Source: Streptomyces sp. HNM0575
GTDB lineage: Bacteria; Actinomycetota; Actinomycetes; Streptomycetales; Streptomycetaceae
Direction: 5' to 3'
Length of the DNA: 64,000 bases
Assembly (NCBI RefSeq): GCF_012726265.1
Contig: NZ_JAASAG010000002.1
Coordinates: forward strand, 868,001 to 932,000
Shown in pieces: positions 8,457 to 34,035 of this stretch; position 1 is the first letter of the stretch; each line of letters begins with the position of its first letter. The notes beneath the pieces were generated by a model, which was not told the DNA's origin, did not search any database, and saw only the letters and a list, made by a program, of their open reading frames with translations. The position numbers and the translations under genes were made by a program.

Positions 8457-9938
8457 ATGCCGTCGTTCGACACGGAAGTCCCCGTCCTGCTGCTCCGGCT
8501 CGATCCCAATCCGTTCCACCACGGAACGCTGGGCGCCATCCGGTCCTTGGGGCGTACGGGAATCGAGGTGCACGTCGCGGAGGCGGCACCGGGACCTGTG
8601 GACCGCTCCCGGTTCGTGCACCGGGTGCATTCGCTGCCGCCGGACGGCACTTCGGACGCGGAACTCGAGAGGGCCCTGTGCCGCGTCTCGGACGCGATCG
8701 GCGCACCCGCCGTGCTCATCGCACTCGACGACCGGGGCGCGATCGCCGTGGCCGCGCTGGCGGACCGGCTGCGCGAGCGCTTCCTGCTCCCGGCGACGGC
8801 TCCCGGACTGCCCGCCCGCGTCGCCGACAAGGCCGAACTCGCCGAACTATGCGCCGCGGCCGGAATCTCACACCCCGTCACCGTCACGCCCGGCAGCGCG
8901 GCGGAGGCGGCGCGTGAGGCGGCGCTGCTGGGGCTTCCCGCGGTCGCGAAGTGGAGCCGTCCATGGCTGCTGCCGAAGGGCATGCGCAGCACGACGCTCG
9001 TACGCACTCCCGCCGACGCCTCCGAGTTGTACGAGCGCAGCGCTCACGCCGGCAGCCGGCTGCTGTTGCAGCAGCGGCTGAGCGGCGGGCGCGGAACGGA
9101 CTGGTTCTTCCACGGCTACGCCGACGGCGAGGGCGGGTTCCTCGTGGGCGGCGCCGGCCGCAAGGAGCGCTCCTGGCCGCCCCGTACGGGCCTGACGGCG
9201 GTCGGCACTTGGCTCGCCAACCGCGAGGTGGAGGACGCGGCGGCGCGGCTGGCCGCACAGGTCGGCTACCGCGGAATCCTCGACCTCGACTTCCGCTTCG
9301 ACCCGGTCACCGGCTCGTACCACCTGCTCGACTTCAATCCGCGGCCCGGCGCGCAGTTCCGGCTCTTCACGGACGAGGACGGGCTGGACGTCGTAAGGGC
9401 GCAGCATCTGCACCTGACGGGGCGTCCGGTGCCGCGGCAGGGCGACGGGCAGGGGCGGGTGTTCGTGGCGGAGAACTACGCGCTGCTGTCGGCGCTCGTG
9501 GCGGGCGCCTCGCTGGTCGGCGAGCTGCTGCGGGCGGGGCGGGGGCGGACGGCGCGGCGCGAGGAGGGGGAGCACGGGACCCCGCTGCCGCTGCGGCTCC
9601 GGCTCCAACTCCGGCTCCGGGTCTGGCTGCGGCTTGGGCTTGGGCTGGGGCTCCGCCTGCCCCTGGGCGGGCGGGGACGGCGGGGACATGGGCGCGCCGG
9701 CGCCGGACGGGGCGTCGAGCGTGCCTGGTTCGCGCTGGACGATCCGCGGCCGTTCTTCGCGATGGCCGGCGCCTGGTTCGTACGCGGCGCCCTCAAGGTC
9801 TGGCATCGCGTCGGTTCCGTAAGGGCGGCGCTGCCCGCCGCGGCGCCGGGGCTGCCGGCCGCAGCGCACTTCCGAACCACTCGTGACGAGCGATCAGTGC
9901 AAGATCAGAGAGAAGGAAACGCATGTACGACCTCGTAG
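8457..9938 (+). CDS. ATP-grasp ligase with Leu/Arg-Gly/Leu repeat insert
   Basis: 493 residues. The N-terminal pre-ATP-grasp domain, the central AKWSRPWLLPKG lysine region and the C-terminal LDLDFRF / LLDFNPRPG metal-binding block are those of carbamoyl-phosphate-synthetase-like ATP-grasp proteins, which join a carboxylate to an amine or thiol through an acyl phosphate. AAGGA at 8446 precedes the ATG at 8457. After residue 370 an alternating LRLRLQLR / LGLGLGL segment (nt about 9577-9665) interrupts the protein before a last domain. That domain (AWFALDDPRPF, FVRGALKVWHRV) is in the same frame, so the segment is a true in-frame insert. The stop lies 16 nt inside the next gene. The substrate is unknown; D-alanine-like or amino-acid ligation to a glycan or peptide are options. 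Confidence 0.75.
   Translation: MPSFDTEVPVLLLRLDPNPFHHGTLGAIRSLGRTGIEVHVAEAAPGPVDRSRFVHRVHSLPPDGTSDAELERALCRVSDAIGAPAVLIALDDRGAIAVAALADRLRERFLLPATAPGLPARVADKAELAELCAAAGISHPVTVTPGSAAEAAREAALLGLPAVAKWSRPWLLPKGMRSTTLVRTPADASELYERSAHAGSRLLLQQRLSGGRGTDWFFHGYADGEGGFLVGGAGRKERSWPPRTGLTAVGTWLANREVEDAAARLAAQVGYRGILDLDFRFDPVTGSYHLLDFNPRPGAQFRLFTDEDGLDVVRAQHLHLTGRPVPRQGDGQGRVFVAENYALLSALVAGASLVGELLRAGRGRTARREEGEHGTPLPLRLRLQLRLRVWLRLGLGLGLRLPLGGRGRRGHGRAGAGRGVERAWFALDDPRPFFAMAGAWFVRGALKVWHRVGSVRAALPAAAPGLPAAAHFRTTRDERSVQDQREGNACTTS
9577..9665 (+). repeat. 6-bp periodic simple repeat inside ATP-grasp gene
   Basis: Degenerate CGGCTC / GGGCTT hexamers encode alternating Leu-Arg then Gly-Leu residues. The antisense frame reads as a Pro-Glu/Pro-Lys repeat, but the flanking domains are only coherent on the plus strand. 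Confidence 0.75.
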
Positions 9939-11218
9939 TGGTGGGCGCAGGCCCCTACGGCCTTTCCATCGCCTCGCACGCCGCGGCCGCCGGACTCAAC
10001 CTGCGCGTCCTAGGCCGTCCCATGGCCTCGTGGCGCGACCACATGCCACAGGGCATGTACCTCAAGTCCGAGCCCTGGTCCTCCAACCTCTCGGACCCGG
10101 CCGGTACGCACACGCTCGCCGCCTACTGCTCCGCGCGCGGCATCACGGTGGAGCACGGACGGCCGCTGCCGCTCGGCACGTTCACCGAGTACGGGCAGTG
10201 GTTCGGCCGGCGGGCCGCGCCGCCGGCCGACGAGCAGACGGTGACGTCCGTCGTGCCGTGCGCGCGCGGCTTCCGCGTGGAGACGGCCGAGGGCGAGGTG
10301 CTGGTGACCCGTACCGTCGTCGTCGCCGTCGGCGTCATGCCGTTCGTGCACAAGCCGGGACCGCTGCGGAAGCTGCCGCCCGCGCTCGTCTCGCACAGCA
10401 GCCACCACCAGGACCTGAGCCGTTTCAAGGACAGGGACGTCACGGTGGTCGGCGCGGGGCAGGCGGCCCTGGAGACCGCGGCGCTGCTCGCCGAGGAGGG
10501 CGCGCACGTGAGGGTCGTCGCCCGCGCCGACCGCATCAACTGGAACTCCCCGCCGCAGCCCCTCCAGCGCACCCTGCTCAAGGCGATCCGCGATCCGCAC
10601 TGCGGGCTGGGCACCGGCTGGCCGAGCTGGGTCTTCTCCGAGATCCCCTGGGCGGTACGGAAGCTTCCGGCGCCGCTCAGACAGCACATCGCGCGTACGG
10701 CGCTGGGCCCGGCCGGTGCGTGGTGGCTGCGCGACCGCTTCGAGTTCGCGGTGCCGGTGCTGCTCAGCAGCCGGCTCAGCGCCGCGGAGCAGGTGGGCGA
10801 ACAGGTGCGGCTGCGGCTGGAGTCGGCCGACGGCGTCGTGCGCACGGTGCAGACGGACCACGTGGTGGCGGCGACCGGTTTCACCCCGCGGCTGGCACGG
10901 CTGTCGATGCTGGACACCTCGGTGCGCAGCATCCTGCACCGGGTCGGCTCCAGCGACGCCCCCGAACTCAACGCCAGGTTCGAGTCGTCGCACCCCGGAC
11001 TCTTCTTTACGGGCCTGCTGGCGACCCCGTCGTTCGGGCCGTCCATGCGCTTCGTGTACGGGGCGACCTTCGCGGCGAACCGCGTGGTGCAGGGAGTGAA
11101 GCGGCGGCTGGCCGAGCCCAGGCTGGCGACCGTGCCGCACGCCGCCCGCGCCCGGACCACCGAACAGCACCGCGCGGACGGCCAGTTGACGGGAGAGCCC
11201 GCGCCCGCCCGCCGCTGA
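9923..11218 (+). CDS. FAD/NAD(P)-dependent monooxygenase-like oxidoreductase
   Basis: 431 residues. The N-terminal Rossmann motif VVGAGPYGLS (about residues 6-15) binds FAD, and a second one, VVGAGQAALE (about 174), should bind NADPH, as in flavin-containing and lysine/ornithine N-monooxygenase-like enzymes. An ATGF-like motif (VAATGFTPRL) lies near the C-terminus. The ATG at 9923 is preceded by GAAGGA and overlaps the ATP-grasp gene by 16 nt, implying coupled translation and a shared pathway. The last 30 residues are an Ala/Arg tail. Hydroxylation of an amine substrate is a reasonable guess; the sequence does not identify it. Confidence 0.78.
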   Translation: MYDLVVVGAGPYGLSIASHAAAAGLNLRVLGRPMASWRDHMPQGMYLKSEPWSSNLSDPAGTHTLAAYCSARGITVEHGRPLPLGTFTEYGQWFGRRAAPPADEQTVTSVVPCARGFRVETAEGEVLVTRTVVVAVGVMPFVHKPGPLRKLPPALVSHSSHHQDLSRFKDRDVTVVGAGQAALETAALLAEEGAHVRVVARADRINWNSPPQPLQRTLLKAIRDPHCGLGTGWPSWVFSEIPWAVRKLPAPLRQHIARTALGPAGAWWLRDRFEFAVPVLLSSRLSAAEQVGEQVRLRLESADGVVRTVQTDHVVAATGFTPRLARLSMLDTSVRSILHRVGSSDAPELNARFESSHPGLFFTGLLATPSFGPSMRFVYGATFAANRVVQGVKRRLAEPRLATVPHAARARTTEQHRADGQLTGEPAPARR

Positions 11219-26642: not shown

Positions 26643-27071
26643 GTGACCTACAAGTACTTCGGCGCACCGGACGGCGCGACGGCTGCCCGGGTCCCGGTCT
26701 CCATGCGCCCCGAGGAGCTCGGCGGAGACGAGCTCGGCCACGGCATGTTCACCAAGATCAAGCCGGAGACCATGGCCGCGATGGTGCTCACGGGCATCGA
26801 GGGCATACCTCTTCACCGGGTCCCGCCGCTCGAACTCGTGGTGCTGCACCCGGATTACGCCGTCGTCAAGCTGCCCATGACCGTCGTGGACCCGCTGCGC
26901 GGCATCGGCGAGGAGTCGGTGGGCGCGGCGGCCTTCATCTGGTCCACGGTGCCCGACCGCGCGGGCCCGCAGGACGCGTTCAACGTGTATCAACTCCTGC
27001 ACGAGTGGCAGGACTTCTCCGACCGTCTGCACATGGCGGGCCACCAGCCGTACTGCCTGGTGTGGCCCTGA
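26643..27071 (+). CDS. Conserved actinobacterial hypothetical protein
   Basis: 142 residues from the GTG at 26643 (VTYKYFGAPDG). The coherent sequence starts here; 57 residues of Gly/Arg-rich open frame upstream (to 26472) look non-coding, and a GTG at 26637 is also possible. The protein has no signal peptide or membrane helix and a mixed alpha/beta composition, with conserved-looking blocks GMFTKIKPETMAAMVLTG, VVLHPDYAVVKLPMTVVD and HQPYCLVWP. I recognise it as a streptomycete conserved protein without a known function. It is convergent with the TetR gene, only 3 nt apart. Confidence 0.65.
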   Translation: MTYKYFGAPDGATAARVPVSMRPEELGGDELGHGMFTKIKPETMAAMVLTGIEGIPLHRVPPLELVVLHPDYAVVKLPMTVVDPLRGIGEESVGAAAFIWSTVPDRAGPQDAFNVYQLLHEWQDFSDRLHMAGHQPYCLVWP

Positions 27072-27074
27072 CCG

Positions 27075-27746
27075 CTACGGGCTCTCCGCCGTGAGATAGC
27101 GCTGCACCGTGGGTCCCAGCCAGTTCACGATCTCCTCGTGCGTCAGTCCGACCGAGAACGGCAGCTTCAGCACGTAACGGCTGACGGCCATCCCGAGGAC
27201 CTGCGAGGCCAGCAGCGCCGCACGCAGGGGCACTTGCTCCGGGTCCGGGCACACCGTGGCGACGACGGGCGCCACTTGGTCGCGGAAGACCGAGTGCACG
27301 CGCTCCGCGCCCGCCGGGTTGGTGACGCCGACGCGCAGCAGTGCGTTGAGGGTCTCGTCGCCCTCCCAGCGGTGCAGGAAGTGGCGTACGAGCCGGGTGC
27401 CGATCTCGTCGGCGGGTACGCCGCTCAACTCCGGGAGCCGCAGGTCGATTTCGGAGGCGGCGGCGAAGAGGCCCTCCTTGTTGCCGTAGTAGCGCATGAC
27501 CATCGAGGGGTCGATGCCGGCGTCGCGCGCTATGGCGCGGATCGTCGCCCGCTCGTATCCGTCCGTGGCGAAGCGCTCGCGTGCGGCGCGCAGGATCGCC
27601 GCACGCGTCGAGTCCGAGCGGCGCGTGGACCGGACGGGAGCCGCCTGCGCGGAGGCCGCATGGGCCTTGCCGGCTGCGGCGACGGACGGGGCCGCGGCTT
27701 CGGCGGAGGCTCCCGCACGGGGGCGTGACTTCGCTTCGTCTTCCAC
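27075..27746 (-). CDS. TetR-family transcriptional regulator
   Basis: 223 residues. About 40 Ala-rich N-terminal residues precede the TetR DNA-binding domain (TRAAILRAARERFATDGYERATIRAIARDAGIDPSMVMRYYGNKEGLF), then a C-terminal ligand domain of the TetR_C type with FLHRWEGDE. GTG at 27746 has a TACAGT -10 box 7 nt upstream, so a leaderless transcript is likely. A 16-bp palindromic site (27761-27776) lies in the -10/-35 spacer, the usual place for autorepression. The same site is found over the promoter of the monooxygenase gene at 31673, its probable target. Confidence 0.88.
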   Translation of the reverse strand: MEDEAKSRPRAGASAEAAAPSVAAAGKAHAASAQAAPVRSTRRSDSTRAAILRAARERFATDGYERATIRAIARDAGIDPSMVMRYYGNKEGLFAAASEIDLRLPELSGVPADEIGTRLVRHFLHRWEGDETLNALLRVGVTNPAGAERVHSVFRDQVAPVVATVCPDPEQVPLRAALLASQVLGMAVSRYVLKLPFSVGLTHEEIVNWLGPTVQRYLTAESP

Positions 27747-27753
27747 GCCAACG

Positions 27754-27759
27754 ACTGTA
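27754..27759 (-). promoter_or_regulatory. -10 element of the tetR-type gene
   Basis: TACAGT on the minus strand, 7 nt before the GTG start at 27746, giving a leaderless transcript. Confidence 0.6.
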
Positions 27760-27760
27760 G

Positions 27761-27776
27761 GCCAACGTGCGTTGAC
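27761..27776. promoter_or_regulatory. Predicted TetR operator, autoregulatory
   Basis: GCCAACGTGCGTTGAC has perfect CAACG / CGTTG arms around a 2-nt centre. It sits just upstream of the -10 box. Fifteen of 16 bases recur at 31554-31569. Confidence 0.7.
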
Positions 27777-27860
27777 GGACCAGACCCCTGGTCACGGGGT
27801 ACGGAAGCCGGCGCTGCCCGGGGAGTGCGGGAGCACCGGCGGTCCCGTGCGGCCGCCGTC

Positions 27861-28604
27861 TCAGGGCACGGGCGACAGCGACGGCAGGACGATCTCCCGG
27901 TGCACGGAGCGGATGTGCGCCTCCACCGCCTGCCCGGCACGCTCGGCCTCACCGGCCGCCACGGCGTCGTAGATCTCGTGATGCTCGGAGCGCAGCCGGG
28001 CGGCGACCGTCTCCCAGTCGTCGACGCGGTTGAAGACGGTGAGCAGCGTCTGCCGCACCGCGTTGCGCACGGACACGGTCAGGTCGGCGACGAGGCGGTT
28101 GCCCGCCGCCTCCGCGATGGCGACGTGGAAGTCCGTGTCGCAGTCGTTGAACGCCTCGCGCGGAAGGCCGGCCGCGTCCATGCGGTCCAGTTGCTCACGA
28201 ATCCGCGCGAGGTCGTCCGGACCGGCGCGCTCGGCGGCGAGCCGGGCACTGGAACGCTCCAGTACGGCACGTGCCTCGACGACGTCGTCGAGCGGGAAGT
28301 GCGCGAGCGCGATGTGCAGTCTGAGGAACTGGGTGAGCCCCGCGTCGGGCATGGCTGCGATCACGTTCCCCGAATCCGGTCCCGTGCCGACACGGGGCCG
28401 CAGCGCCCCCTGCGCCTCCAGCACGCGCAGCGCCTCGCGCACGGCCGCCCTGCTCACCCCGAGCAGTTCGCTCAACTCCCGCTCGGGCGGCAGCCGGTCG
28501 CCCACCCGGAGCCTTCCGTTGTGGATGAGCTGCTCGATCCTGGTGAGCACGAGTTCGTACGTACGGGAACGGGCCACGGGTTCCCAGTCGTCCGGCCCGG
28601 CCAT
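27861..28604 (-). CDS. GntR-family (FadR/FCD) regulator of the permease
   Basis: 247 residues. N-terminal GntR winged helix (GDRLPPERELSELLGVSRAAVREALRVLEAQGAL) and C-terminal FCD domain with the metal-type residues DTDFHVAIAEAAGN and RSEHHEIYDAV. LldR-type members respond to lactate or related acids. ATG at 28604 has AGGGG a few nt upstream; the longer frame is discarded. It is divergent from the lactate-type permease, and two TGGTC-N-GACCA sites fill the shared upstream region, so it should control the permease and itself. Confidence 0.88.
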   Translation of the reverse strand: MAGPDDWEPVARSRTYELVLTRIEQLIHNGRLRVGDRLPPERELSELLGVSRAAVREALRVLEAQGALRPRVGTGPDSGNVIAAMPDAGLTQFLRLHIALAHFPLDDVVEARAVLERSSARLAAERAGPDDLARIREQLDRMDAAGLPREAFNDCDTDFHVAIAEAAGNRLVADLTVSVRNAVRQTLLTVFNRVDDWETVAARLRSEHHEIYDAVAAGEAERAGQAVEAHIRSVHREIVLPSLSPVP

Positions 28605-28702
28605 GAAACCCCTCCCGAATCCGCGGCGTCGTGCCACTCGCCCGGTGGCGCCGAAACGGCACGGCACCTGTCGCCGGGAGCGCAATCCAATCACCCATGC
28701 TT

Positions 28703-28713
28703 TGGTCGGACCA
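28703..28713. promoter_or_regulatory. GntR operator 1
   Basis: TGGTCGGACCA, matching the TGGT-N3-ACCA pattern bound by FadR-subfamily GntR proteins. Located upstream of the permease -35 element. Confidence 0.7.
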
Positions 28714-28729
28714 CATCATGTGCGGTCCC

Positions 28730-28758
28730 TGGACAGCGAGTTGGGCTCTTCATAGTGT
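28730..28758 (+). promoter_or_regulatory. Promoter of the lactate-type permease gene
   Basis: -35 TGGACA (28730-28735), 17-bp spacer, -10 TAGTGT (28753-28758). Transcription should start near 28765, 35 nt before the ATG. Confidence 0.65.
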
Positions 28759-28775
28759 GTGGCAGCTTCTTTGCA

Positions 28776-28786
28776 TGGTCTGACCA
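28776..28786. promoter_or_regulatory. GntR operator 2
   Basis: TGGTCTGACCA, same arms as operator 1, placed just after the predicted transcription start of the permease gene, where bound repressor would block elongation or open-complex formation. Confidence 0.7.
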
Positions 28787-28799
28787 AATCCGTACGGGG

Positions 28800-30620
28800 A
28801 TGCCCTTGTACCAGCCCGCGCTCTCTCCGCTCTCCGGCGGCCTCGCGCTGTCGGCGCTCGTGGCCACGGTGCCGCTGCTGACCCTGTTCCTCCTGCTCGG
28901 AGCGGCCCGGGTACGCGCGCACTGGGCCGGACTCGCCGCTCTGGCCGTCGCGGTGGGCATCGCCGTCGCCGTGTACGGGATGCCGCTGAAGCTGGCGGCC
29001 CTCGCCGCGAGCGAAGGCGCCGTGTTCGGCCTCTTCCCCATCGGCTGGATCCTGGTGACGGCCATCTGGCTGTACCAACTGACCGTCGTCAGCGGCACGT
29101 TCGAGGATCTGCGCCGCTCACTCGGTCTCATCAGCGACGACCCGCGGGTGCTGGCGGTCGTGCTGGCGTTCTGCTTCGGCGCCCTGCTGGAGGCGCTCGC
29201 GGGCTTCGGCGCACCCGTGGCGATCACCGGGATCATGCTGATCGCGCTGGGCTTCCCGCCGTTCCGCGCGGCGGTGACCGTGCTGGTCGCCAACACCGCG
29301 CCCGTCGCCTTCGGCGCCATGGGCATACCCGTCATCACGGCGGGCGGGCTGACCAAGATCCCGTACACGGACATCGGCGCGTACGTCGGCCATCAGGTGC
29401 CGCTGCTCGCGCTCTTGGTGCCGCTGCTGCTGACGGTGCTGGTGGACGGCTTCCGCGGGCTGCGGCAGATATGGCCGGTCGCGCTGGTGTGCGGCGCGAC
29501 CTTCGCGCTCGTGCAGTACGTCAGCTCCAACTACATATCCGTGGAGCTGACCGACATCATCACCTCGCTCGCCAGCATGGTGGCGGCCGTGGTGTTCATG
29601 AGGTTCTGGCGGCCGCGGGGCAGCGAGGAGGCGAGGGCCGAACTCCTCGGCGAGGCCGGCGGACGGGGCCGCTACGACGCGGGCGGGCAGCGGACGGCGA
29701 CGGCGCGCGGATCAAACGGCGGGCACGGAGGACACGGAGGACCGACGGGCGGACCGTACGGCCACCGCGAACAGCACGGCGACCACGGGCGAGGACGCGG
29801 GCACGCGCGGCACGGCACCGCGGCACACGCACCGCGCACCGGCCACGGAGCCGCACCCGTGCGCCCGCCGGCGGACGGCAGACGCCTGGCCTCGGCCTTC
29901 GCCCCGTACATCATCGTCATCTCGGTCTTCTCCGTCGCCCAACTGTGGACGCCCGTCAAGGAGTTCCTCGGCGCCACCGACATCGCCGTCCCCTGGCCGG
30001 GCCTGGACGGAAAGCTGCGCACCGTCTCCGGCGGCGAAGTGGACTCCACGGTCTACAACCTGGCGTGGCTGTCCTCCCCCGGGACCCTCCTGCTGCTCTC
30101 CGGCGTCATCACCGCGCTCGTGCTCCGCATCGAACCGCAGTCCGCGCTGCGGGAGTTGGGCGCCACGCTCGTCAAGCTGCGCACGGCGCTGCTGACCGTC
30201 GCGTCCGTGCTCGCGCTCGCGTACGCGATGAACCTCTCCGGCCAGACCATCACCATCGGCACGTTCGTGGCCGGGAGCGGAAGCGCGCTCGCGCTGCTCT
30301 CCCCGGTGCTCGGCTGGTTCGGCACCGCGGTCACGGGCTCCGACACCTCGGCCAACGCGCTCTTCGCGACCCTCCAGCACACCGCCGCCAAGGGAGCCGG
30401 CCTCGATCCGACGCTGCTGGTATCCGGGAACACCTCGGGCGGCGTCGTGGGCAAGATGATCAGCCCGCAGAACCTCACCATCGCCGCGACCGCGGTCGGC
30501 TGCGCCGGCCAGGAGTCCGAACTGCTGCGCGCGACGCTCAAGTGGAGCCTCGGACTGCTGCTGATCCTCTCCGTGTTGATCTATGCACAGTCCGGCATCC
30601 TGGCCTGGACGCTGCCGTAG
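28800..30620 (+). CDS. L-lactate permease family transporter (LctP/LldP)
   Basis: 606 residues, about 13-14 membrane helices. Family stretches include FGALLEALAGFGAPVAITG, ANTAPVAFGAMGIPVI and the C-terminal GSDTSANALFATLQ and SGNTSGGVVGKMISPQN. LctP members move lactate or glycolate with protons. A His/Gly/Arg-rich cytoplasmic loop of about 85 residues (nt 29620-29880) is longer than usual. ATG 28800 aligns with the family N-terminus; the long upstream frame crosses the promoter and is not coding. Regulated by the divergent GntR gene. Confidence 0.9.
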   Translation: MPLYQPALSPLSGGLALSALVATVPLLTLFLLLGAARVRAHWAGLAALAVAVGIAVAVYGMPLKLAALAASEGAVFGLFPIGWILVTAIWLYQLTVVSGTFEDLRRSLGLISDDPRVLAVVLAFCFGALLEALAGFGAPVAITGIMLIALGFPPFRAAVTVLVANTAPVAFGAMGIPVITAGGLTKIPYTDIGAYVGHQVPLLALLVPLLLTVLVDGFRGLRQIWPVALVCGATFALVQYVSSNYISVELTDIITSLASMVAAVVFMRFWRPRGSEEARAELLGEAGGRGRYDAGGQRTATARGSNGGHGGHGGPTGGPYGHREQHGDHGRGRGHARHGTAAHAPRTGHGAAPVRPPADGRRLASAFAPYIIVISVFSVAQLWTPVKEFLGATDIAVPWPGLDGKLRTVSGGEVDSTVYNLAWLSSPGTLLLLSGVITALVLRIEPQSALRELGATLVKLRTALLTVASVLALAYAMNLSGQTITIGTFVAGSGSALALLSPVLGWFGTAVTGSDTSANALFATLQHTAAKGAGLDPTLLVSGNTSGGVVGKMISPQNLTIAATAVGCAGQESELLRATLKWSLGLLLILSVLIYAQSGILAWTLP

Positions 30621-30681
30621 CGCTTTGACATCCTTTGTACTTCGGGCCCGTGGCCGTGCCATCAGGGAGACGACTGAAGAA

Positions 30682-31386
30682 GTGGACCGCTTGTCCCAGC
30701 ACACGTCATCCGACCCCGGCAGGCCCGCGTTCAACCGCGAGGCGGCGCGCAGCACGCGCCAGGCCCTCGGGATGCGGGCCGAGGACGTCGCGTCCACGAT
30801 GCTCAGCGCGTACGGCGTGCAGGTCACCCCGCTGACGGTGCTCAGCTGGGAGTCGGGCGACCAGAGCCCCGGCGAGCGGGAGTTGGCGGCTCTGGCGGGT
30901 GTGCTGTGGTGCTCGGTGGGCGACCTCATGGGCTCGCTGAGCAGTGTGCACCAGCACCGGCTCGCCCGTGGCGTCTCGACGTTCGACATGGCGCTGCGCC
31001 TGGGCGTCTCCCCCGCCGAGTACGAGGAGATGGAGCGCAGCGGACGGTGGCGGCTGACCGGGCGTCAGGCCGAACTCCTCGCGGAGGCACTCGCGTTGCC
31101 GCTCCGCGCGTATCTCGACGTCACCGGGCTCGGCGCCGAGGTGGGCGAGCTGCTGCTGCGTGCGGTCACGAACCGCTGGCAGCCGTACGTACAGCCCGTG
31201 TGCAAGCTGCTGGACCTGCCGCGGGCGCGGGTCAGCGGGATCCTTCACCATCTGCACTCCGAATACCAGGCCATGGTCGGCACGTTGGACTGGGGCGGCG
31301 GCACGATCTCCATGGAGCCCGGCGAGGAGGGGCGCGCGTTCCTGGCGCGCCTGGTGGACCTGTTCTGCGCGCGCCTGGACGACTGA
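30682..31386 (+). CDS. XRE-like helix-turn-helix regulator
   Basis: 234 residues from GTG 30682; TTG 30691 is also possible with a GAAGAAG ribosome site. The sequence holds an XRE-type HTH (ARSTRQALGMRAEDVASTML, followed by VLSWESGDQSPGERELAALA), then a second, weaker HTH-like region (ARGVSTFDMALRLGVSPAEYEEME). The C-terminal 100 residues resemble no domain I can name. It lies 61 nt after the permease gene, and a TTGACA at 30625 suggests its own promoter. Target unknown. Confidence 0.7.
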   Translation: MDRLSQHTSSDPGRPAFNREAARSTRQALGMRAEDVASTMLSAYGVQVTPLTVLSWESGDQSPGERELAALAGVLWCSVGDLMGSLSSVHQHRLARGVSTFDMALRLGVSPAEYEEMERSGRWRLTGRQAELLAEALALPLRAYLDVTGLGAEVGELLLRAVTNRWQPYVQPVCKLLDLPRARVSGILHHLHSEYQAMVGTLDWGGGTISMEPGEEGRAFLARLVDLFCARLDD

Positions 31387-31466
31387 GCGCGGGGCGGCGC
31401 CGGCGCCGCTCTCATCCGCGGGCAGGCGAGCGTGAGTTCGCAGCCCGGGGCGCGTGGGCGGACCCC

Positions 31467-31522
31467 GTGAGCCGGGCTGCGTGAGCCGGGTCCCGTGAGC
31501 CGGGCCCTGTGAGCCGATTCCC
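31467..31522 (+). repeat. 14-bp tandem repeat, four units
   Basis: Four units beginning GTGAGCCG (31467, 31481, 31495, 31509), the last diverged, in the gap before the operator-rich promoter of the monooxygenase gene. Confidence 0.85.
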
Positions 31523-31553
31523 CGTAGACCGGCACCTGAGCCAACACCCGTGG

Positions 31554-31627
31554 GCCAACATGCGTTGACATCGCCGAGAGGGCCCATCTACCGTGGTGCC
31601 AACGGGTGTTGACCAACGTCTGTTGAC
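31554..31627. promoter_or_regulatory. Cluster of three TetR-type operators
   Basis: Three sites share CCAAC-N4-6-GTTGAC: 31554-31569 (one mismatch to the tetR site), 31598-31613 and 31612-31627, the latter two overlapping. A further half-like CCAAC lies at 31541. They bracket the predicted promoter, consistent with repression by the TetR protein encoded at 27.1 kb. Confidence 0.68.
31565..31594 (+). promoter_or_regulatory. Promoter of the aromatic monooxygenase gene
   Basis: -35 TTGACA (31565-31570), which is the right arm of the first operator, 18-bp spacer, -10 TACCGT (31589-31594). The second operator begins 4 nt after the -10 box. Confidence 0.6.
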
Positions 31628-31672
31628 ATCGGCATCCGCTTGTCCGGCCTTGTTCGGCGATCGGGAGGACTC

Positions 31673-33424
31673 ATGGCACCCAGCGGCACCCGAGCCACCG
31701 GTACGGCTCCCGGCGGCGAGCCGGAGCGCATCGCCCACGGCGGCGACCGGACCGCGGACGTGATCGTCGTCGGCGCGGGGCCCACGGGGCTCATGGCCGC
31801 CGGGGACCTCGCCGAGGCCGGGCACCGGGTCACGCTCGTCGAGCGCCGCCCGGAGGGGATCAGCAACCTCACCCGCTCCCTCGTCGTGCACGCCCGCACG
31901 CTGGAGCAGCTGGACGCCCGCGGTCTGGCCGACGAACTGATCGGCACGGGCGCCCGGATGGAGACGCTCGGCCTCTTCGGACGTGCGGAGCTGCGACCGT
32001 CGCGGCTGCCGAGCCGCTTCCCGTTCGTACTGGTCACCGGCCAGTACGAGGTGGAGCGGCTGCTGGAGCGGCGCGCCCGCAAGGCGGGGGTGACCTTCGT
32101 GCACGGCACGGAGGTGCTGGAGCTCCGCCAGGACGGCTCGGGCGTCGAGGTCGACGTCGCGGCCACGCCGCCGGAGGAGGGGGCGTACGACGGAACGGTT
32201 CCCGCGTACGGGAGCGAGACGGAAGGCGGGGCCGATGCGGGGGCGGGGGCCGAGGCGTCCTCCCCGGCCGACGCCTCCGTCACGGCCGAAGCGGGCCGTA
32301 CGGCCGACGCGTCCGGCACCACGGAGTCGGCCGAGACGGCCGAAACGGCCGGGGCGACCGCCACGGCCGGGACCGCCGACGCGCCCCGCACGCTTCGCGG
32401 CTCCTACGTCATCGGCACCGACGGCGTGCACAGCACCGTCCGCGAACTGCTGGGGCTGCCCTTCCCCGGCAAGTCCGTGATCCGTTCGATCGTGCTGGCC
32501 GACGTCCGGCTGACCGACCCGCCGTCCAACCCCTTCCTCGTCAACGCGACGCAGGACGGTTTCGCGCTCATCGCGGGCTTCGGAGACGGCTGGTACCGGG
32601 TGATGGGCTGGAGCCGCCACCGGCAGCTGCCCGACACCGAGCCCGCCGGACTGGAGGAGGTCAGGGAGCTCGCGGTGGCGGCACTCGGCTCCGACCACGG
32701 GATGCACGACCCGCGCTGGATCTCCCGCTTCCACAGCGACGAACGGCAGGCACCGCGCTACCGCGTGGGCCGGGTCTTCCTCGCGGGCGACGCCGCACAC
32801 GTCCACTCGCCCGCCGGCGGCCTGGGCATGAACACCGGCCTCCAGGACGCGGCGAACCTCAGCTGGAAGCTCTCGGCCGTGCTGCGCGGCCACTCCCCCG
32901 CCACGCTCCTGGAGACGTACGACGGCGAACGGCACCCCGTGGGCAGCCTCGTGCTGCGCATCAGCGGCACCATCATCCGGCTCGCCCTCGCGCGTTCCGC
33001 CGCGGGCCGCACGCTGCGCGCCACCGGGGCCGGACTCCTCAGCCGCGTACGCCCGTTGGCCGGACGTGCCGTGCGGACGGTCTCCGGCATCGCCATCTCC
33101 TACCCGGCGCCGCGCGGCTCCCATCCGCTCGCCGGCAGGCGCGCGCCGGACCTGCCGCTCGCCTCCGGGTCCCGTCTCTACGAGGCGCTGCGCGCGGGCT
33201 CGTTCGTACTCGTCTCGCCTGTGGACGCGCCTCCGCCGGACACGGGCGTGGAGGCCGACGACCGTACGGTCCACGTGCGTTCGGCGTCGACCGGCGGCCG
33301 GACCCTGCTGGTACGGCCGGACGCCTATATCGCGTGGGCGAGCGACAAGCAGGATCCGCAGGGGCTGCGTCAGGCGCTGGCGGAGTGGACGGGCTCACCG
33401 GCGGTACGGGAAGTGGAAGCGTAA
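31673..33424 (+). CDS. FAD-dependent aromatic monooxygenase (PHBH/TetX-like)
   Basis: 583 residues. Class A flavoprotein monooxygenase: GxGxxG in VIVVGAGPTGLMAAG, the DG motif YVIGTDGVHSTVRELLG, and the GD motif VFLAGDAAHVHSPAGGLGMN. Such enzymes hydroxylate phenolic or polyketide substrates with NAD(P)H and O2. An Ala/Glu/Thr-rich insert of about 60 residues (nt 32190-32390) sits just before the DG motif. The C-terminal 90 residues look like the thioredoxin-like domain of the MhpA/RdmE group. GGGAGG lies 4 nt before the ATG at 31673. Its promoter carries TetR-type operators, so induction by substrate or toxin is likely. Confidence 0.88.
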   Translation: MAPSGTRATGTAPGGEPERIAHGGDRTADVIVVGAGPTGLMAAGDLAEAGHRVTLVERRPEGISNLTRSLVVHARTLEQLDARGLADELIGTGARMETLGLFGRAELRPSRLPSRFPFVLVTGQYEVERLLERRARKAGVTFVHGTEVLELRQDGSGVEVDVAATPPEEGAYDGTVPAYGSETEGGADAGAGAEASSPADASVTAEAGRTADASGTTESAETAETAGATATAGTADAPRTLRGSYVIGTDGVHSTVRELLGLPFPGKSVIRSIVLADVRLTDPPSNPFLVNATQDGFALIAGFGDGWYRVMGWSRHRQLPDTEPAGLEEVRELAVAALGSDHGMHDPRWISRFHSDERQAPRYRVGRVFLAGDAAHVHSPAGGLGMNTGLQDAANLSWKLSAVLRGHSPATLLETYDGERHPVGSLVLRISGTIIRLALARSAAGRTLRATGAGLLSRVRPLAGRAVRTVSGIAISYPAPRGSHPLAGRRAPDLPLASGSRLYEALRAGSFVLVSPVDAPPPDTGVEADDRTVHVRSASTGGRTLLVRPDAYIAWASDKQDPQGLRQALAEWTGSPAVREVEA

Positions 33425-33440
33425 GCGGCCTGACGGCGAG

Positions 33441-33620
33441 CACGGGACCGCGGGGTTCCGTATCCGCGAGCACGGGACCGCGGGGTTCCGTATCCGCGGG
33501 CACGAAACCGCGGGGCTCCGTATCCGCGGACACGAAACCGCGGGGTTCCGTATCCGCGGGCGCGGGACCGCGGGGCTCCGCAGCGACGGGCGCGGGACCG
33601 CGGGGCTCCCTGGCCGCGGC
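33441..33620. repeat. 30-bp tandem repeat, six units
   Basis: Six contiguous 30-bp units starting at 33441, 33471, 33501, 33531, 33561 and 33591, each with ACCGCGGGG near its centre; the first four are nearly identical, the last two have diverged. All frames stay open across it because the unit is divisible by three, but no start codon with a ribosome site was found, so it is treated as intergenic. Confidence 0.9.
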
Positions 33621-33687
33621 ACGCGGGACCGCACGTAGACGAGATCGCCCGCGACCCGCGCCCTCCGTGCACACCGCGGGCCTCGCG

Positions 33688-33693
33688 TAACCT
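33688..33693 (+). promoter_or_regulatory. -10 element of the ynfA-type gene, leaderless
   Basis: TAACCT ends 6 nt before the ATG at 33700. Confidence 0.55.
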
Positions 33694-33699
33694 GCCGCC

Positions 33700-34035
33700 A
33701 TGCTCGTCGCCCGCTCCGTCGCCCTGTTCGTCCTCGCGGCGCTCATGGAGATCGGCGGAGCGTGGCTCGTCTGGCAGGGAGTTCGCGAACACCGCGGCTG
33801 GGCCTGGATCGGCGCGGGCGTGATCGCCCTCGGCGTCTACGGCTTCGTCGCCACGCTCCAGCCCGACGCCCACTTCGGCCGCATCCTCGCCGCGTACGGC
33901 GGCGTCTTCGTCGCGGGTTCCCTGCTGTGGGGCATGGCCATGGACGGGTTCCGCCCGGACCGCTGGGACGTGACGGGCGCTTTGATCTGCCTCGCCGGAG
34001 TCGCCGTCATCATGTACGCGCCGCGCGGCCACTGA
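33700..34035 (+). CDS. YnfA-family (UPF0060) small membrane protein
   Basis: 111 residues, four membrane helices, the standard size. Family blocks [40 protein letters not shown] and [18 protein letters not shown] are clear. The family resembles small multidrug-resistance transporters, but its physiological role is not settled. A -10 box 6 nt upstream indicates leaderless transcription. It sits downstream of the 30-bp repeat array. Confidence 0.92.

Follow-up and report, generated by a model that had tools for sequence, protein, structure and literature searches.

Our goal was to understand how a repressor can be matched to its target when the two genes are no longer neighbours. The question is raised by a 64,000-nucleotide stretch of the Streptomyces sp. 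HNM0575 genome (contig NZ_JAASAG010000002.1, positions 868,001 to 932,000). We refer to this whole stretch as the window, and number it from its first letter. The window encodes a TetR-family protein (TetR, gene tetR) and a flavin adenine dinucleotide (FAD) monooxygenase, whose gene we label MOX. The two genes are ~3.9 kb apart. Between them is a block encoding a GntR regulator, a permease and an XRE protein. Note that this gene order, described in a first-pass annotation made from the letters alone, is borne out by family matches. The same annotation proposed that one TetR acts at its own promoter, and at the distant MOX promoter, through a shared palindrome. Our sequence comparisons strongly support this proposal. 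The support comes from the places of the sites in the genome, from relatives with divergent genes, from five genomes where MOX is on a different contig, and from the lack of sites beside more distant TetRs. We conclude that TetR very probably represses itself and, in trans, the MOX promoter 3.8 kb away through shared 14-bp palindromes, and that an ancestral shared promoter was probably duplicated and then divided.

Near-identical palindromes at two promoters

The strict 14-bp palindrome pattern is YCAACRNNYGTTGR, and palindrome positions are called op1 to op4. Note that the core of the pattern was chosen post hoc, after relatives had been viewed. As first described, a palindrome is present between the tetR -10 and -35 elements; its 16-bp form is GCCAACGTGCGTTGAC (27761-27776). 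Near-identical 16-bp copies are indeed found at the MOX promoter, ~4 kb away. One has 15 of 16 bases the same (31554-31569) and there are two further copies (31598-31613 and 31612-31627). The annotation also stated that one operator contains the MOX -35 element, TTGACA. The 31554 site does overlap this hexamer, and takes in most of it, not all. The four sites originally listed are all real, and the one-mismatch op4 of each promoter (Table 1) had been missed. With up to one mismatch to YCAACRNNYGTTGR, the window has six sites, all in the tetR and MOX promoters.

Shuffling and raw counts are, alone, unconvincing as evidence against a chance origin. Allowing up to three mismatches, there are 4 sites in the 64-kb window, compared to 1.18 expected, and 5 of 100 shuffles reach 4, which is weak evidence. 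Across the 7.38-Mb genome, CCAACNNNNGTTGAC occurs 4 times (3 for the reversed pattern), YCAACRNNYGTTGR also 4 times (3 reversed) and YCAACNNNNGTTGR 6 times (6 reversed). The first-pass annotation had named chance frequency in a genome scan as an outcome that would speak against the motif and, by number, the sites are not in excess. Site placement, however, is non-random. All four CCAACNNNNGTTGAC sites, all four YCAACRNNYGTTGR sites, and 4 of the 6 YCAACNNNNGTTGR sites, are in the two promoters. The remaining two YCAACNNNNGTTGR palindromes (C3 and C5), with surroundings known from open reading frame (ORF) lists, lack the RNNY core and were set aside. In 490-bp intervals at the tetR start, for 103 distinct loci, we found 253 palindromes, compared to 0.73 predicted from the remainder of the loci. 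In the same intervals, none of five control patterns (reversed, with swapped arms, or with a core spacer of 3, 5 or 6) occurred. We reject a chance origin because of the genome-wide places of the sites and these in-locus controls.

The strict pattern was also sought in 18 genomes, hand-picked from those behind the 80 named-contig loci described below. Here, 58 of 73 strict sites are at tetR or MOX; the reversed pattern occurs 49 times. The circuit had been called self-contained. This fits the Streptomyces sp. HNM0575 genome, where the strict motif marks only two promoters, but not 9 of the 18 genomes, which have further strict sites away from tetR and MOX.

Most relatives have a single predicted bidirectional promoter

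Loci were drawn from two sets. For the genus set, 121 Streptomyces genomes were searched for TetR homologues, and the 29 best genomes besides that of the window supplied the loci (L002-L030, with short flanking DNA of ~1.5 kb). For the named-contig set, loci are the best 80 of 384 relatives. Early counts used 109 loci, and removal of 6 duplicates left the 103 distinct loci used for array counts. Two loci near contig ends, L020 and L060, were counted as lacking MOX. A TetR match of at least 62% identity is present in 57 of the 121 genomes, the window's own included.

In 89 of the 103 distinct loci, tetR and MOX are divergent and within 1.1 kb. The genes are divergent but far apart in 2 (S. abyssalis L031 and Streptomyces sp. 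WMMB 322 L032) and tandem in 4; 8 have no MOX in the stretch. Conservation in relatives, which the annotation had suggested looking for, is seen. Near the tetR start, at least one strict site is present in 88 of the 89 divergent loci, at least two in 83 and at least three in 64. A total of 23 sites fall outside the tetR-start intervals: 5 at split-locus MOX promoters, 12 at tandem MOX promoters, 4 in L110 and 2 unexplained. The second operator set of L110 adjoins N bases, is a probable assembly artefact, and was excluded as evidence. In each tandem locus (L036, L037, L040 and L041), a 35-39% MOX relative follows TetR and is preceded by three strict sites. A strict 29-bp promoter module occurs in 151 of 392 Streptomyces genomes; its reversed control has 0 occurrences among the matches listed. 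When the DNA of 41 relatives was searched for the stretch around the tetR promoter, 8 genomes matched, with only short pieces besides the window.

The arrangement of sites is regular. In 40 loci with canonical spacing (duplicates kept for column conservation), the order is op1, 14 bp, op2, 42 bp, op3, with a degenerate op4 14 bp beyond. Across loci, sites are spaced by 14 bp 71 times and by 40-42 bp 68 times. Both promoters are embedded in the array. For MOX, TTGACA overlaps op3 and is separated by 18 bp from a -10 element, TAnnnT, with op2 and op1 downstream. For tetR, a TGG-type -35 is followed by 18 bp that are mostly op3, then by TACAGT within op4; the ATG is 7 bp further on. In the same 40 loci, the reverse complement of the MOX -35, TGTCAA, is conserved at 90% for the first T and 100% elsewhere, and the MOX -10 at 93% (first T), 100% (A) and 100% (last T). 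The equivalent figures for the tetR -10 are T 95%, A 100%, C 100%, A 85%, G 72% and T 93%, with TGG at the -35 position in 88-93%. The window matches both promoter halves, but at two separate places. Note that a simple consensus promoter scan found no sigma-70 promoters in 27000-34000. Hence, our -10 and -35 assignments rest on conservation in relatives. In the window, as in relatives, the tetR -10 ends 7 bp ahead of the start codon. Because this distance is so short, a leaderless tetR message is suggested.

Tandem repeats adjoin some arrays. In L074 (~9850-10001), the 14-bp unit GGCCTACGCTTGTT is in tandem ahead of tetR, which suggests that operator number changes by slippage. In the window, a 14-bp tandem repeat of 4.1 copies (31459-31516) is just upstream of the MOX operators and has the same period as the operator array. 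These are perhaps decayed operator copies.

TetR is the likely reader of the motif

Sites follow a particular group of TetR proteins. Sites are present at 5 of 5 more distant TetRs (53-57%), all of which are paired with a divergent MOX relative. For TetRs below 45% identity the figure is 0 of 15. The putative recognition helix differs accordingly, being PSMVMRYYG in site-bearing groups and ALVH-type in 14 of the 15 TetRs below 45%. This tracking of the TetR clade and MOX, and the restriction of the block genes to L031 and L032, point to TetR as the likely reader.

Since the XRE gene adjoins the MOX promoter, a different regulator (the XRE protein or a global regulator) might bind the palindrome, with tetR merely another target. 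We regard this as highly improbable. Homologues of the GntR, permease and XRE proteins are encoded in just L031 and L032 of 109 other loci, as far as the short flanks of L002-L030 reach, while the sites are in nearly all. Similarly, 12 genomes were searched for the block proteins, and only the three split ones encode a close permease homologue (84-85%) and a close XRE homologue (89-90%). In the other nine, the best permease is 55-57% in three and the best XRE protein is 39-46% in five, with none in the rest. The motif also tracks this particular TetR clade with the associated MOX, and is not a feature of TetRs at large. It could instead be argued that the sites are a conserved sigma factor promoter element and not operators, because TTGACA is largely contained in one and the tetR -10 is covered by another. 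This is scarcely credible. The sites are two-fold symmetric around a fixed 4-bp core, tandem copies 14 bp apart are also found downstream of the MOX -10, and this genome has no strict site outside the two promoters. We rejected XRE, GntR and sigma factors as readers of the motif on distribution, and return to TetR.

The protein belongs to the TetR family by its matches to PF00440 (48.5 bits, cut-off 24) and PF17920 (101.4 bits, cut-off 26.2). An AlphaFold model is all-helix, with a mean predicted local distance difference test score (pLDDT) of 83.9. In a PDB structure search, the top matches to this model were TetR-family chains with low template modelling (TM) scores, so a generic fold with poor superposition. 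No clue to the ligand was found in this PDB comparison.

TetR proteins act as dimers. From sequence, we infer TetR binding, repression, an inducer and the chemistry as follows. A TetR dimer would bind the 14-bp palindromes, YCAACRNNYGTTGR. At the MOX promoter, op3 and op4 would be occupied at, and upstream of, the -35, and op2 and op1 from about the start point downstream. At the tetR promoter, op3 would occupy the -35/-10 spacer and op4 would cover the -10. Release of TetR, and so expression of both genes, would be triggered by a small molecule; a xenobiotic or aromatic natural product, open to hydroxylation by MOX, is the probable candidate.

A doubled promoter in the clade of the window

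How did the promoter halves part? We propose an ancestor in which tetR and MOX would have been divergent neighbours with one common bidirectional promoter. In the clade of the window, the op3/op4 promoter would then have been duplicated, with the GntR-lactate permease-XRE block now between the copies. Each copy retains the -10 of its own gene but not that of the other.

The op3/op4 module is present twice, ~3.8 kb apart, in the window, L031 and L032; the block sits between the copies. Among the matches listed, same-strand modules 3.8 kb apart are a feature of the window genome and of G415, whose coordinates equal those of S. abyssalis. In S. nanshensis (L033), the module is also present twice, 125 bp apart and without the block. 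These four loci form a clade (support 100/99), and next to it are L034 and L035, with a single module each. By eye, the MOX-side copy has CCCAC in all four clade members, while TetR-side copies, L034, L035 and L093 have CCTAC. Therefore, the tetR -10 has been lost from the MOX-side copy. Note that CCCAC is not diagnostic alone, because it also occurs in some single-copy loci (e.g. L011, L014 and L016). Conversely, TetR-side copies lack the MOX -10 (alignment, by eye).

The order of events can be told in two ways. The block may have arrived with the promoter duplication and later been lost in S. nanshensis, or duplication may have preceded insertion. The former is possible, though somewhat less likely than not. 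It accords with gene trees, which weakly nest L033 in the clade, and with site patterns over 7360 aligned downstream columns: 33 put L033 outside, compared to 34, 34 and 19 for the alternatives. A duplication-first history, on the other hand, requires no clean excision, and no block remnant is visible by eye in the ~97 bp between the L033 module copies.

Separation might also have weakened control. XRE ends 154 bp ahead of the first MOX operator, and no terminator-like site was found in the XRE-MOX interval, the sole match in the scanned region being inside tetR and at chance level. Thus, the link could be decaying, with TetR mainly self-regulating and MOX partly free or read through from XRE. 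We consider this unlikely, since the MOX side retains three strict sites and one near-perfect site at near-ancestral spacing, and the other split loci keep three strict MOX-side sites (L032) and two (L031). Control of MOX by TetR seems to have persisted although the genes are no longer adjacent.

Separation onto other contigs

In five other genomes (those of L046, L052, L059, L062 and L079), MOX (56-60%, best stretch) is on a different contig from TetR. This MOX has strict sites at three positions in two of the genomes and at two positions in the other three, where the remaining position is degenerate. No TetR relatives were found within the 9-10 kb read near this MOX in the five genomes. Each encodes one TetR at 70-72% identity, with its own op3, and the next best is 37-42%. 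Strict sites are at tetR or MOX in 4 of 4, 3 of 3, 3 of 3, 3 of 3 and 4 of 6 instances in these genomes. All 5 MOX-side copies, two of which are near-identical, lack the final T of the tetR -10. In G420 and G421, MOX is >270 kb from either contig end. Hence, tetR and MOX are unlinked in these two genomes. In a tree, the five loci and L073 form one clade, apart from the clade of the window. There appear to have been at least two independent separations: one in the clade of the window and one in the S. flavidovirens/S. chryseus clade, where MOX and TetR are on different contigs.

Genome G107 (L139/L158) is a possible independent split. It has the module near MOX and a second, degenerate, copy at tetR. 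Translation of L158 1-3600 reads as a remnant resembling a major facilitator superfamily (MFS) transporter between the module copies.

We think it probable that these states form a series of decoupling. In such a series, a shared bidirectional promoter-operator duplicates, each copy loses its unneeded half, and foreign genes or relocation separate regulator and target, whose link persists. There would be at least two independent cases, two candidates (the strain with the MFS-like remnant and the tandem group), and a regulon nested inside a regulon.

Genes and features of the locus

The features are collected in Table 1. MOX has the domains of an FAD-dependent aromatic-ring hydroxylase (PF01494, 269.5 bits; PF21274, 62.4 bits). 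Its closest solved relatives are the rifampin monooxygenases (Rox/Iri), with chains 5kow (248 bits) and 5vqb (241 bits), and polyketide oxygenases are also matched. MOX scores 319 bits against the rifampin monooxygenase equivalog NF033145, below the cut-off of 800. The xenobiotic or antibiotic response first suggested is a fair guess from enzyme class. MOX would have a detoxification or tailoring role and would be induced by an aromatic compound. Within MOX, a repeat of 18-bp period (32248-32379) encodes an Ala/Thr-rich low-complexity stretch; matches to solved relatives mostly start past it. A 30-bp tandem repeat of 6.5 copies (33436-33632) is between MOX and the YnfA gene.

The YnfA gene is present in 31 of the 80 named loci, always on the MOX strand, and is possibly read through from MOX. 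In genomes with MOX elsewhere, YnfA is divergent to TetR and the MOX -10 has been lost. For both reasons, we make no claim that YnfA belongs to the regulon. The L032 stretch lacks YnfA.

The intervening block seems, from its sequence, to have a regulator with operators of its own. Between the GntR and permease genes are two perfect TGGTCNGACCA palindromes, the sole window matches at up to one mismatch. Since 2.11 are expected at that looseness, place and perfection carry the weight. The permease passes the LctP family cut-off (TIGR00795, 420.1 compared to 341.15 bits). S. abyssalis has a second GntR-permease pair (L157; permease 66%), followed by an LldE-like gene, as read from translation. 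The block may derive from a lactate operon like that of L157.

Table 1. Positions of genes, promoter elements and palindromes in the window.
Feature	Position	Strand	Basis
TetR-family repressor gene (TetR_N + TetR_C_16)	27075..27746	-	Pfam; predicted leaderless, GTG start
TetR-side op4, one mismatch, overlaps tetR -10	27748..27761	.	motif search; aligned with relatives
tetR -10 TACAGT	27754..27759	-	sequence and conservation
TetR-side op3 palindrome CCAACGTGCGTTGA	27762..27775	.	motif search
tetR -35-like CTGGTC, weak, 18-bp spacer	27778..27783	-	sequence and conservation
GntR (FCD type) regulator	27861..28604	-	PF00392, PF07729 on longer ORF; start possibly up to 28694
Putative GntR operator TGGTCGGACCA	28703..28713	.	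motif search; function inferred
Putative GntR operator TGGTCTGACCA	28776..28786	.	motif search; function inferred
Lactate permease family transporter	28800..30620	+	PF02652 437.7 bits; TIGR00795 420.1 bits
XRE/helix-turn-helix (HTH) protein	30682..31386	+	HTH_31, HTH_3
MOX-side op4, one mismatch; corresponds to the region of the tetR -10 in single-copy relatives, minus the -10	31541..31554	.	
MOX-side op3 palindrome CCAACATGCGTTGA, overlaps MOX -35	31555..31568	.	motif search
MOX -35 TTGACA	31565..31570	+	sequence and conservation
MOX -10 TACCGT, 18-bp spacer	31589..31594	+	sequence and conservation
op2 palindrome CCAACGGGTGTTGA	31599..31612	.	motif search
op1 palindrome CCAACGTCTGTTGA	31613..31626	.	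motif search
FAD monooxygenase MOX (FAD_binding_3 + Rng_hyd_C), predicted target	31673..33424	+	Pfam; PDB matches
YnfA/UPF0060 small membrane protein gene	33700..34035	+	PF02694

Discussion

The wiring described here is already known in kind; the operator, and the duplicated and divided promoter, are new. In Ahn et al. 2012 (PMC3511530), SCO7222 of S. coelicolor was footprinted on three palindromes beside a divergent monooxygenase gene and a reporter showed repression. The resemblance is in the TetR-family repressor, the divergent monooxygenase gene and the palindromic operators in intergenic DNA, as in relatives here. Unlike our pair, SCO7222 and SCO7223 have the operator TGGAACGNCGTTCCA, and their genes are 146 bp apart and unsplit (PMC3511530). 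The window has 0 matches to TGGAACGNCGTTCCA at up to two mismatches. The TetR/tetA paradigm, as outlined in the same source, is an autorepressor and target with palindromic operators between divergent genes, and this fits relatives here. In the window, unlike TetR/tetA, regulator and target are ~3.9 kb apart, each with its own promoter-operator copy. A literature search without most subscription papers found none on this operator or TetR-MOX pair. Four short operator strings were also sought in the literature; they matched 5 papers, each with a single string, and none was bacterial by title.

The duplication-degeneration-complementation model describes a two-sided element that is copied, after which one side is lost from one copy and the other side from the second. 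The element here differs in being a bacterial bidirectional promoter-operator, and losses accompany the parting of regulator and target.

Some observations weigh against our interpretation. According to PMC3511530, Streptomyces TetRs tested with <200 bp to a divergent gene repressed that gene. The window has no such divergent target within 200 bp, and the tetR-MOX distance is far beyond that validated for this rule; predicted palindromic operator sequences are at both promoters. The relatives are best matches only, so conservation was seen among close homologues. Not all of them conform: the L097 pair is divergent yet has degenerate sites only, and L040 lacks a strict site ahead of tetR. The L140 TetR (42%) has a similar helix, PAMVMRYYG, with neither site nor MOX. 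In the 18 genomes, 15 of 73 strict sites are elsewhere (five in G425, two each in G423 and G426, and one each in six others). Finally, L083 and L090 match the module twice, 56 bp apart within the array. Hence, local module doubling is not confined to the clade of the window.

Streptomyces TetR targets are normally predicted by adjacency, an approach that would miss MOX in the window and in the five genomes with MOX on another contig. The ligand could be sought with reporter strains that carry these operators. The series of states (shared, doubled, split and unlinked) allows testing of how regulatory links survive changes in gene order. Because the operator recovers the target where adjacency fails, the motif provides a handle on a widespread oxidative module.

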